A stretch of DNA of 37,269 nucleotides from a virus, in the IMG/VR virus record IMGVR_UViG_3300042090_002518, positions 1-37,269 of that record; one strand, given 5' to 3'. Position numbers and translations under genes: made by a program. The notes beneath the pieces were generated by a model, which had not been told where the DNA came from, made no database searches, and saw only the letters and a list, made by a program, of their open reading frames with translations. This document shows, one piece after another, positions 2,538 to 28,716 of the stretch. Position 1 is the first letter of the stretch; each line of letters begins with the position of its first letter.

Positions 2538-2591
2538 TTATACAGCTAATGTTGCACGAAGATTGATAACCCAAAGATCGTTGGTGATCCG
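2538..2591 (-). other. Capsid exon 5 (last, 54 nt)
   Basis: 17 codons, RITNDLWVINLRATLAV, then TAA. It is too short to be found as a gene on its own. The stop overlaps the AAGGAG of the next gene. Confidence 0.88.
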
Positions 2592-4691
2592 CTATTTGTT
2601 ACTCCCTTTCGGGGGAAGAACCGCTTCGGATTCTTCTCAACTGGTTTCCTCAGTTGTTCGGACTATCGCATCCCATTTATGGGTCTTCTCACTTAGTCTC
2701 TCACGGTGGCTTGCGCCTTCCGCCCTGTCACCGGCTCTTACGCTACGGCTTCCAAGTCAATCAGAGAAGATTTATAGTGCCCCGAAAGTTCAGGCACTTC
2801 TGCAAACTTATAGCCAACAGAGGCGTTAAGCGCCAATGGGTCACTATAAATTGGTGGACGATAAATAAAGCTTGCGCTGTAACCGTCTTGCACGATACAC
2901 GCATAGGCTTCCATACCAACACAGAAAATGTTGTATACGGTAGCGCCTAAGCTTGAACCGTTCGGGGTATTTGAACCTATCGAACTAACCAAGAACCTGA
3001 GATTTCCTATAGCACCCCATTCTGAGCGCAATGCGTTCATTGGAGCTGGATATTGGTTCTTGTGAATAAAGCCGTTCACGTTGTCCAAGTTACCGGTCAA
3101 AAAGGTTGAACATAATGCAAAGTACGCATCTCGAACCGGGGCTGTTCCAAACTTATCTTCACCTTCGATATTCAAATAGTAATTTAATTACTATGTCTGT
3201 TACTTTTTGTGACCCTTCCGGGCGGGGAAACTTCTTCGAATCTCCCTCTCTATATTTCTATAGAGTTCAGACTATCGCATCACCTTGCGGTGCTTTCTCA
3301 CTTAGTCGTTCACGGTGCTTACGCTTCCGCCTTGTCACCCCAAAGGGCTTCCAAGTCTATCAGAGAAAGTTTTACATGGACAATATCTCTATCCATTATC
3401 GTATATGCATTATTATTCAATAATGTACGCACGACGTTATCAACATCAGAACGTGAAATTTCAGTTGGTATATCACCGTTTACGCCGCCAACACAATTAA
3501 TAAATGAAGCGGTTGCTGCAAGCATGTCCCGAGTCAATTGATCTTCGGTTTGACGTAAAGATACGCCAAGACGAGCTGCTGCTTCGTTCAATACTGGATC
3601 TTGGTTTTGAAGGGTGCAATCTGTTACTTTATGACCACAAATGTGGCGATGGGTCTTGTTATTCCCCATTCTTCTGGTTACCCAGAAGCTCGGACTGTCG
3701 CTTAACCTTTCGGTTTCCACTCGCCTCAGTCTCTCACGCTAGTCATTTATTTATTTTAGTTTTACAATGTATATATACACTTTGATATAGGAGAAATCAT
3801 GGATACGCCTCAAGAATTTGCATATTTAGCGGGAATAATTGATGGGGAAGGATCTATATACATTGGTAATTTTAGTAAGAATAAAAAAACGGGTGCTTTG
3901 TATTACCAAACAAATATGGAAGTAACCAATACTGATGAATCTCTTATGAAGTGGCTGACTGAGAAATTTGGAGGAAGAATACATAAATATACAGAAAAAC
4001 AAACTCCAAAAAATTCCAGAAAACCTATCTATAGATGGATTGTTACCAGTGATTTATTGACCTATCTATGCCAACAAATGCTTCCTTATTTAATTATAAA
4101 AAAACGACAGTGCTGGATTATGATTCAAATGAGAAATACATATACCAAAAGCAATTATGTTAAAGGTCATAAAGGAACTCAGCCAATTAGTGAATATATT
4201 ATGAAAATGCGCAAATCATTATTTGATGAGATGCGATCATTACATTGCAGAAACTACAATAAATAAACCCTTGCGCCTTGTTGTCCCATAGGGATTTCCA
4301 AGTCAATCAGAGCGGATTTAAAGCAGGCCATCTGCTTACAAAACCAAGAAATTTCAAAGAACAATTTTATTAACCTGCTCGTTGAGCGTTACGTATGTCT
4401 TTACGCTTCAACTGTTACGGCACATATACCGTAAAAAGAGATCTTGGCATCAATATCCACCGCGGTCAGGTTTTGAGGCGGAGGCGTGATACCAGAATTT
4501 CCAAGTGGAACCATTGCTGTATTGAGAGGATTATATCTTCTCATACGCAACGTTGTACCGCCATTGCGTGGCATTTGCTTTGGCATGGCTGGGATCTTAT
4601 GTATCATATTTGGAACTGGTACGGACAAAAGCTTATAAGAAAAGCTTTGCTGCACCGGCGCCGGTAAAGTAGATGTGGTTGTTATTGCCAT
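2538..4691 (-). CDS. Major capsid protein, N4-gp56 family, split by three group I introns and one 29-nt core-less element
   Basis: ATG 4689-4691 follows GGGAG. The exons are 4691-4428, 4398-4373, 3616-3391, 3172-2792 and 2591-2538, together 951 nt or 316 residues ending at TAA 2538-2540. Joined, they restore family landmarks across every junction: KISFYG+TYVTLNEQ, LNEQ+VTLQNQDPVLNEAAARLG, LLNNNAYTIMD+NIEGEDKFGTAPVRDAY, and GYKFAEVP+RITNDLWVINLRATLAV. The N-terminus (LPAPVQQSFSYKLLS, GGTTLRMRRYNPLNTAMVPLG) and the C-terminal NDLWVINLRATL are typical of this HK97-fold capsid family. The scaffold candidate lies upstream. Unspliced, the message would give only a 96-residue product ending at TAA 4401-4403. 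Confidence 0.92.
2592..2791 (-). ncRNA. Group I intron c of the capsid gene (200 nt, no ORF)
   Basis: The 5' exon end GUGCCU pairs with GGGCAC (2777-2782): P1 with U-G. The guide bases UUCG pair with the next exon, CGGA (4-bp P10 including one G-U). The intron ends in G (2592). P7 strands are GAGAGACTAAGTG (2690-2702) and GATGCGATAGTCCGAAC (2656-2672); P8 is CCCA-TAAA-TGGG (2672-2683); P9 is CAACTG/CAGTTG (2638-2656). It shares CTGATTGACTTGGAAGCC with the other introns. Confidence 0.9.
2792..3172 (-). other. Capsid exon 4
   Basis: 381 nt, 127 codons, NIEGEDKFGTAPVRDAYF to GYKFAEVP. It ends with U (CCU) paired in P1 of intron c. Confidence 0.88.
3173..3390 (-). ncRNA. Group I intron b of the capsid gene (218 nt, no ORF)
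   Basis: The 5' exon end AUGGAU pairs with GUCCAU (3376-3381): P1 with U-G. The guide bases GAUAUU pair perfectly with the start of the next exon, AAUAUC (6-bp P10). The intron ends in G (3173). P7 strands are GAACGACTAAGTG (3299-3311) and GATGCGATAGTCTGAAC (3265-3281); P8 is CACC-GCAA-GGTG (3281-3292); P9 is CTCTATA-GAAA-TATAGAG (3248-3265). The core is closely similar to intron c. It carries no gene and relies on others for mobility. Confidence 0.9.
3391..3616 (-). other. Capsid exon 3
   Basis: 226 nt encoding VTLQNQDPVLNEAAARLG through LLNNNAYTIMD. It begins right after the terminal G of intron a and ends with U (GAU). Confidence 0.88.
3617..4372 (-). ncRNA. Group I intron a of the capsid gene, carrying an antisense LAGLIDADG gene
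   Basis: 756 nt. The 5' exon end GAGCAGGU pairs with GCCUGCUU (4321-4328) to form an 8-bp P1 with the terminal U-G pair. The intron ends in G (3617). Core parts on the minus strand: P7 strands at 3724-3735 (GAGAGACTGAGG) and 3688-3701 (GCGACAGTCCGAGC); P8 as AACC-GAAA-GGTT (3704-3715); P9 hairpin with GTAA loop (3671-3688). The P10 match is short (2 bp). The endonuclease gene sits in what corresponds to the P6 loop of the other two introns. Confidence 0.88.
3799..4266 (+). CDS. LAGLIDADG homing endonuclease inside intron a, antisense to the capsid gene
   Basis: 155 residues, ATG at 3799 behind TAGGAG. One LAGLIDADG motif is present at residues 8-22 (YLAGIIDGEGSIYIG), so it would act as a homodimer. 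Such enzymes cut intron-less alleles so that the intron is copied in. It is read in the opposite direction to the intron that carries it, so it needs its own promoter. A weak candidate, TTTACA then GATATA 17 bases later, lies just upstream. A basic C-terminal half (RWIVTSDLLTYL, IIKKRQCW) matches the usual fold. Confidence 0.9.
   Translation: MDTPQEFAYLAGIIDGEGSIYIGNFSKNKKTGALYYQTNMEVTNTDESLMKWLTEKFGGRIHKYTEKQTPKNSRKPIYRWIVTSDLLTYLCQQMLPYLIIKKRQCWIMIQMRNTYTKSNYVKGHKGTQPISEYIMKMRKSLFDEMRSLHCRNYNK
4373..4398 (-). other. Capsid exon 2 (26-nt micro-exon)
   Basis: Encodes TYVTLNEQ plus two bases of the next codon (GT|C). It lies between the 29-nt element and the endonuclease-bearing intron. The frame and the conserved YG-TY-LNEQVTL spacing of the family are restored only when both flanking segments are removed. 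Confidence 0.8.
4399..4427 (-). ncRNA. 29-nt core-less group I intron element (P1 and P10 guide, no ribozyme core)
   Basis: The upstream exon end UUACGGU pairs with GCCGUAA inside the element (7 bp, U-G wobble at the splice base). The preceding UAUGU pairs with the first bases of the downstream exon, ACAUA (5-bp P10). The element starts after U and ends in G, as group I introns do. It lacks P3-P8 altogether. GTAACAG inside it is the tail motif of two of the three complete introns (the third has GTAACAA), which suggests IGS fused directly to a 3' tail. Its length (29) breaks frame and places TAA at 4401-4403. Confidence 0.75.
4428..4691 (-). other. Capsid exon 1
   Basis: 88 codons from the start to KISFYG. 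The last base is U (GGU), paired with G in the guide sequence of the following 29-nt element. Confidence 0.85.
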
Positions 4692-27971: not shown

Positions 27972-28127
27972 ATGGAAAAAAATCAAGTAAAAAGACTCGC
28001 GATGTATATGCCAAGAGAGCTGCATCATGAACTAAAAATGATCGCTGCAAAGCGAAATATCACCATGACCGCATATGTGGTGAATATCCTTACAGCAATT
28101 GTACACAAAGAAAAGCAGTATGAATAA
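27972..28127 (+). CDS. Arc-like ribbon-helix-helix regulator of the cassette
   Basis: 51 residues from ATG 27972 behind AGGAG; an upstream in-frame ATG at 27915 overlaps the promoter. The strand KRLAMYMPRE plus helices LHHELKMIAAKRN and TAYVVNILTAIVHK fit Arc/CopG folds. It probably binds the palindrome just upstream. The stop overlaps the HNH gene start. Confidence 0.75.
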   Translation: MEKNQVKRLAMYMPRELHHELKMIAAKRNITMTAYVVNILTAIVHKEKQYE

Positions 28128-28716
28128 GGGCATTTCTAATTGTAAATTTTGTAACAAATTATTTGAATACCGAATAAGAAAAAATCGGGGCATATATTGC
28201 TCACGCCATTGCCAAAATACAGCAAATGCTCGTAGAGCTGCACAAATAGCTGAGGCTAAAAAGAAGATATCGATCTGTAAAAAATGCAATAAAGAGTTTC
28301 GTTATAAACCATGCGATCAACCAGGCATTTACTGTTCAATTATTTGTAAGCGGAAAGGGTCAAAATTAACTGATGTTACAAAAAAAGAACGTATGAAAAT
28401 GTATTACGAACGAGATGTCATACGCCAAAATAATTGCTGGGATTGGAATGGAATGATTTACAATACTGGATACGCATCTATTCCACAGGGTAGAAATAAA
28501 ACTATTCTGGCACATCGTGCTTCATGGTTAATTCATTTTGGAGATATTCCCCAAAATATGTTTGTGCTCCATAAATGTGACAATCCTCCATGCACTAATC
28601 CGAAACATTTATTTTTAGGAACAGCCAAAGACAATTCAATCGACATGATAAAAAAGGGCAGAGCAAGCGGCCAATTTCAGAAAGGTTTAATACCATGGAA
28701 CAAAAAAAATTTATGA
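28120..28716 (+). CDS. HNH homing endonuclease with two zinc fingers
   Basis: 198 residues, ATG at 28120, overlapping the regulator by 8 bases. Two N-terminal zinc modules: C8-C11-C27-C31 and C53-C56-C72-C76. The HNH core has HRASW (H132), then VLHKCDNPPCTNPKHLFLGT (H151, C153, C158, N161, H163) and DNSIDMIKKGR. Free-standing enzymes of this type cut DNA site-specifically and spread their own gene. No intron is seen around it. Confidence 0.9.
   Translation: MNKGISNCKFCNKLFEYRIRKNRGIYCSRHCQNTANARRAAQIAEAKKKISICKKCNKEFRYKPCDQPGIYCSIICKRKGSKLTDVTKKERMKMYYERDVIRQNNCWDWNGMIYNTGYASIPQGRNKTILAHRASWLIHFGDIPQNMFVLHKCDNPPCTNPKHLFLGTAKDNSIDMIKKGRASGQFQKGLIPWNKKNL

Follow-up and report, generated by a model that had tools for sequence, protein, structure and literature searches.

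How is a capsid protein made from a gene whose reading frame is broken by an insert of only 29 nt, when the insert itself has no room for a ribozyme? The question is raised by IMG/VR virus record IMGVR_UViG_3300042090_002518, a 37-kb phage contig taken here at its full length (positions 1 to 37,269; hereafter, the window). The contig encodes a P22-like portal and a major head protein of family phrog_1357, and its minus-strand capsid gene is interrupted by three complete group I introns, termed a, b and c, as well as by the 29-nt insert at 4427-4399. Our proposal is that the insert represents a group I-like mini-intron that is non-autonomous and is removed in cis through the ribozyme of a neighbouring intron, a reading to which, from comparative sequence analysis, we give a probability of about 0.84. 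The window element stands beyond chance, as confirmed by its counterparts: over 60 distinct phage loci have an element of this kind at the very same position.

On the minus strand the element reads ATATGTGCCGTAACAGTTGAAGCGTAAAG, with ...TTTTTACGGT on its 5' side and ACATACGTAACGCTC... on its 3' side. An initial annotation of this DNA had proposed that the insert breaks the capsid frame, and a spliced protein-to-DNA alignment made blind to that claim independently places it there (shifted by one ambiguous base), together with full introns of 756, 218 and 203 nt; if unspliced, the capsid open reading frame (ORF) ends at the stop codon at 4401-4403. The two guide helices described in the same annotation are also present, that is, a 7-bp UUACGGU/GCCGUAA pairing with a U-G pair at the cut and a 5-bp UAUGU/ACAUA pairing; exon 1 ends in GGU, the element ends in G, and 29 nt indeed leave no space for a catalytic core. 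Two traits had been overlooked, the recurrence of the element and a third helix, formed by its 3' part. The parts of the element and its surroundings are the following:

4399..4427, minus strand: putative core-less, group I-like mini-intron of 29 nt (sequence, spliced alignment and cross-locus register)
4428..4434, minus strand: 5' exon strand of the element's P1 (P1'), UUACGGU, with U at the 5' splice site
4415..4421, minus strand: guide strand of P1', GCCGUAA (covariation)
4422..4426, minus strand: guide strand of P10, UAUGU (third pair Watson-Crick in 62/62 loci)
4394..4398, minus strand: 3' exon strand of P10, ACAUA
4403..4412, minus strand: tail strand GUUGAAGCGU of a P2-like tail helix (fixed cross-locus register; recovered by free folding)
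4381..4389, minus strand: exon strand of the tail helix, ACGCUCAAC, ending at exon position -9 of intron a
4373..4398, minus strand: micro-exon 2, 26 nt, between the mini-intron and intron a (spliced alignment; conserved TYVTLNEQV frame)

Through the last large capsid exon, 80 relatives were gathered. A short insert occurs at the identical codon boundary in 18 of them, each time after a GGU codon, whereas relatives without an insert have GGA, GGC, GGG or GGT at that codon. A pattern scan of viral contigs enlarged the set to 62 distinct loci, the window included, with inserts of 28-41 nt in all reading phases (length modulo 3 of 13/25/24, not frame-preserving). Later homology matches added further loci, one of which (L239) has an insert of 53 nt; this mini-intron (L239:6263-6316) is longer because its P1 loop holds a small inverted repeat. 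At three loci found by capsid homology alone (L180, L190 and L239), the scheme of P1, P10 and tail fits by eye. Among about 230 capsid loci, clean small frame-breaking inserts were found only at this site and, as a 4-nt insert, at another (site 117). A scan of a genome collection returned the element in one contig of a metagenome-assembled genome (L164), besides four matches due to chance, and a search for near-identical intron-less exon sequences, which could represent cDNA, returned none beyond truncated copies. The idea of a guide-only, core-less group I-like element is supported, but not as a private deletion or dead allele of one contig: it is conserved and, as described next, covarying.

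In the third P10 pair, a guide base faces the wobble position of a threonine codon, where changes are synonymous, and this pair is Watson-Crick in 62/62 loci (C-G in 42, T-A in 10, A-T in 6 and G-C in 4), against a mean of 31 and a maximum of 42 under permutation. Changes in P1 are likewise coupled, with TAC/GCCGTA at 60 loci, TAT/GCCATA at three and no mismatched combination in capsid genes; when the mismatched patterns were themselves searched for as controls, TAT/GCCGTA gave 0 matches and TAC/GCCATA two, both outside capsid genes. In L180 the guide is GCUGUA and the pairing is kept through G-U.

The tail helix ties the element to one particular intron. From 3 nt past the guide, the insert's 3' part pairs with the 3' end of the micro-exon downstream, in a helix that stops exactly 8 nt short of the 5' splice site at which the next complete intron begins and that meets the P1 of this intron without a gap. 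This intron, the partner, lies at one of three alternative sites, after GAGCAGGU (class A, 43 distinct loci), GAUCCCGU (class B, 15) or GUGUCGCU (class C, 5), and the tail sequence is class-specific and complementary to its own partner site. At the register of 3 nt and 8 nt, pairing over eight positions reaches 94/97/100% in classes A/B/C, against about 20-60% at most registers off that diagonal. Swapping tails among loci lowers the pairing, with 0/5000 permutations as good in classes A and B, and 188/5000 in class C, which has five loci. In a formal count for class A, 97.0% of cells are paired (33-45% in slid controls), and double changes number 97, compared with 28 after shuffling. Where the partner is a short-loop one, free folding recovers three adjacent helices, namely P1', the hairpin of the tail and the P1 of the partner. 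In the window, GUUGAAGCGU (4412-4403) pairs with ACGCUCAAC (4389-4381), adjoining the GAGCAGGU of intron a. Moreover, capsids 92-93% alike can differ in class, tail and partner having switched together.

Among the loci gathered without bias, the partner accompanies the element in 18/18 cases and occurs in 2/59 loci that lack the element (Fisher 1e-15). A tree of 147 capsid genes shows 38 changes of state for the element, and in phylogenetically independent contrasts partner and element change in the same direction 19 times and in opposite directions 0 times (p about 4e-6); the change and contrast counts are approximate, the tree being a FastTree one with some rows from the pattern scan. In the window the partner would be intron a, and the three complete introns are laid out as follows:

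3617..4372, minus strand: intron a, complete group I, proposed catalytic partner (spliced alignment; same family as the aligned P3-P9 partners)
4373..4380, minus strand: exon strand of the intron a P1, GAGCAGGU
4321..4328, minus strand: guide of intron a, GCCUGCUU
3727..3731, minus strand: 5' strand of the intron a P7, GACUG (read by eye; compare the P7 of the partner alignment)
3693..3697, minus strand: 3' strand of the intron a P7, CAGUC (read by eye; compare the P7 of the partner alignment)
3799..4266, plus strand: LAGLIDADG homing endonuclease ORF within intron a, antisense to the capsid transcript (PF00961, E 9.9e-08)
3173..3390, minus strand: intron b, complete group I (spliced alignment; partner-family alignment; RF00028 27.6 bits, E 2e-4, under the Rfam gathering score)
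2589..2791, minus strand: intron c, complete group I (spliced alignment; partner-family alignment)

The ends of intron c were placed by the rule of a U before the 5' cut and a G before the 3' cut, and lie one base off the spliced alignment. The partners and introns b and c have P3 to P9.1, including P7, with covariation, and lack P2; in an alignment of 16 introns, intron a being outside it, 93.9% of the cells of the partner core (P3-P9) are paired, with 132 double changes. By kinship, intron a would be a complete group I intron of the partner kind. A crude P7 motif search had detected only 49/68 partners, and the alignment-based test was used in its place. Partners reach RF00028 scores only under the gathering score, the 199-nt partner of L018 by itself gave no Rfam match, and a scan of the window at the gathering threshold gave zero matches. 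In L089, the Rfam group I model takes its P1 from the mini-element and its core from the partner (E 0.002, sub-threshold). Most class A partners keep a motif like TCTTTGAAATTTCTTGG in their long P1 loop (4300-4372 in the window), and the short-loop ones lack it.

How might a single core serve both introns? The spacing from P1 to P3 in partners is about 5 nt. We suggest that P1', with a 3-nt J1/2, is docked by the partner core where that core's own P1 would otherwise sit, and that the tail hairpin stacks on the partner's P1, filling the vacant P2 position of a core that lacks P2. An exogenous G would then cut after GGU; with the micro-exon aligned by P10, the mini-intron's terminal G would enter the G site and the exons would be joined, so that excision would follow the usual two transesterifications. 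Afterwards, the partner would turn to its own P1 and remove itself; the mini-intron is predicted to be spliced before the partner, because both the tether and the core depart with the latter. The initial annotation had held that a complete intron of the same transcript, any of the three and in trans, might act on the insert. An intron of the same transcript is probably responsible, but since the tail pairs with the exon adjoining the P1 of the next intron downstream, the helper would be that intron, acting in cis.

Several observations weigh against this proposal. The window's own tail helix is bulged, and when the window is folded freely a competing hairpin arises at the P1 of intron a. No pairing of the P9.0 type was identified between the 3' end of the mini-intron and the partner core, and, with its 3' splice site ahead of the core, an intron of 28-41 nt has an unusual topology. 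The terminal G and the U-G pair were preset by the main search pattern; both hold, however, in the loci found by homology, as every mini-intron found in that way ends in G, and GGU/GC, which places the U-G pair of P1 at the 5' splice site, is found in all loci, including the 18/18 found pattern-free. Lastly, introns occur without the element at the class A site in two lineages and at the class C site in four, and hence the partner does not depend on the element.

Four other explanations have to be considered. The mini-intron could be spliced in trans by a ribozyme from a freed intron or from another copy, or by a protein of host or phage, with the tail helix serving just to approximate the splice sites; the logic of P1 and P10 alone is compatible with this, and engineered group I ribozymes do cut out short segments in trans (PMC4094466). 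A core from elsewhere, however, would not lead one to expect an invariably present partner, nor a tail helix that, for each of three partner sites, stops at exactly 8 nt upstream of the 5' splice site, and we regard splicing in trans as unlikely. It is very improbable that P1' represents an alternative 5' splice site, to be joined to the 3' end of intron a with skipping of the micro-exon. One core would indeed face two possible P1 helices, but the loss of 26, 50 or 86 nt breaks the frame, and the covariation of P10 with the start of the micro-exon would be pointless.

The initial annotation had also allowed for translational bypass or a dead allele, and both are disfavoured by the present results. 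Ribosomes hop over inserts in T4 gene 60 and at the byp elements of yeast mitochondria, and the element is likewise short, structured and frame-breaking. Yet none of the inserts has a final codon that matches the take-off GGU (the triplets there are AAG, TTG, ATG, TAG, GAG, CCG, ACG and CTG), and hopping leaves the U-G pair, P10 and the dependence on a neighbouring intron unexplained, so that it can hardly be entertained. A deletion remnant, dead allele or assembly artefact, with capsid made from other molecules of the population, could draw on the complete group I intron found at the homologous site in one relative (L260) and on the likeness of class A tails to intron tails (GTAACAG), which makes an origin by deletion possible. 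Such debris would not be expected in over 60 distinct loci from many metagenomes, with three helices each showing compensatory changes in both strands, in capsid frames that are otherwise intact save for the 4-nt insert at site 117, and we find this explanation barely tenable. An archaeal intron of the bulge-helix-bulge type was also considered and rejected, as the cut appears to sit at a U-G pair inside P1.

Is the element, then, a group I intron? It has a P1 with U-G at the 5' splice site, a P10 and a terminal guanosine, and by its parts it would work like one; the P3-P8 core with P7 is absent from elements of 28-41 nt (one of 53), and because this core defines the group we do not file it there. 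We found no natural group I system in which one core serves two introns in searches of the literature, which covered open-licence papers. The group III introns of Euglena plastids are core-poor derivatives of ribozyme introns that rely on parts from elsewhere, with group II chemistry and a length of about 100 nt. The closest in size are putative group I introns of 63-75 nt in the small subunit rRNA of Phialophora (PaSSU), of which one of 67 nt was reported to splice in vitro (PMC3160393). They have in common with the phage elements a G-U in P1, a P10, a pairing of the intron middle with the 3' exon (PM in PaSSU) and a mostly missing core; they differ in their proposed P7, terminal U and rRNA location, and no partner intron was reported (PMC3160393). 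The phage mini-introns, in contrast, are of 28-41 nt (one of 53), too short for a P7 of their own, end in G and form an exon helix adjoining the P1 of a complete intron. As in the present proposal, in engineered ribozymes one group I core removes an internal segment, of up to 28 nt in vitro by trans-excision-splicing and of 100 nt by the spliceozyme, as set by P1, P9.0/P10 or P9.2 contacts (PMC4094466). Those act in trans and carry the guide on the ribozyme, whereas the phage system is natural, proposed to act in cis, with the guide on the substrate intron and recruitment through an exon helix. Degenerate group I introns of lichen rDNA have likewise lost self-splicing and require help, but they are about 100 nt under normal, the one studied still being near 300 nt, and the helper is thought to be cellular machinery (PMC8527467). 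Naturally split, trans-splicing group I introns of organelles, such as those of fern mitochondria, are also reported to splice from separate pieces (PMC10027690); there one intron is in pieces, whereas in the phages a second intron seemingly borrows a complete neighbour. In the phages the functional unit would be an intron pair sharing one core.

With regard to origin, the intron of L260, a distant capsid locus, is about 232 nt long with guide UUGCCGUA, and in L272 another intron starts at the homologous site, the contig ending inside it. Deletion of the core is a plausible origin for the mini-intron. The GTAACAG of the element is found again in intron tails, as the initial annotation had pointed out, and a deletion through GTAA microhomology is possible for class A, whose tails have this motif; classes B and C do not fit. 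The joint spread of element and partner may be explained by co-conversion with the partner's LAGLIDADG homing endonuclease. The 4-nt insert, UAYG (TATG/TACG), breaks the frame after CUCCGU at capsid site 117 in five loci (L091, L203, L240, L246 and L247), and site 117 holds complete introns in other relatives. All five have an intron at site 143, and the exon GCGGAGU adjoining its P1 pairs fully (7 bp) with the 5' exon ACUCCGU; the same full pairing is found in 4/146 other loci. This insert is possibly a 4-nt intron, a lead only, because codons for leucine-arginine are by nature half complementary to those for glycine-glycine-valine.

The capsid family (L002-L242) is rich in group I-type introns, with several per gene, at sites that include at least 11, 26, 31, 52, 79, 96, 103, 104, 116, 117, 143, 172 and 260. 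PHROGs labels the family of the ORF in intron a (3799-4266) as HNH endonuclease, and a free-standing HNH_3 endonuclease ORF lies at 28099-28716 on the plus strand of the window. The portal proteins of the nearest cultured phages are only about 23% identical to that of the window.

Taken at a wider scale, it is likely that these phages harbour a natural class of satellite introns, core-less inserts of about 40 nt, perhaps down to 4 nt, removed by an adjacent group I ribozyme, an exon-bridging helix making up for the absent P2, with one core for two introns and the two spreading together. If this is confirmed by experiment, one natural ribozyme would remove two separate introns. Introns that have lost their catalyst and depend on that of another are a proposed route from self-splicing introns to the spliceosome. 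More than 60 variants occur in nature, with three partner architectures and with compensatory mutations already built in, so that the requirements of substrate and catalyst are directly testable in vitro, and the system would provide natural designs for the excision of short RNA segments. It also carries a warning for gene finders, in that a frame break of 28 nt in a phage gene may be an intron.
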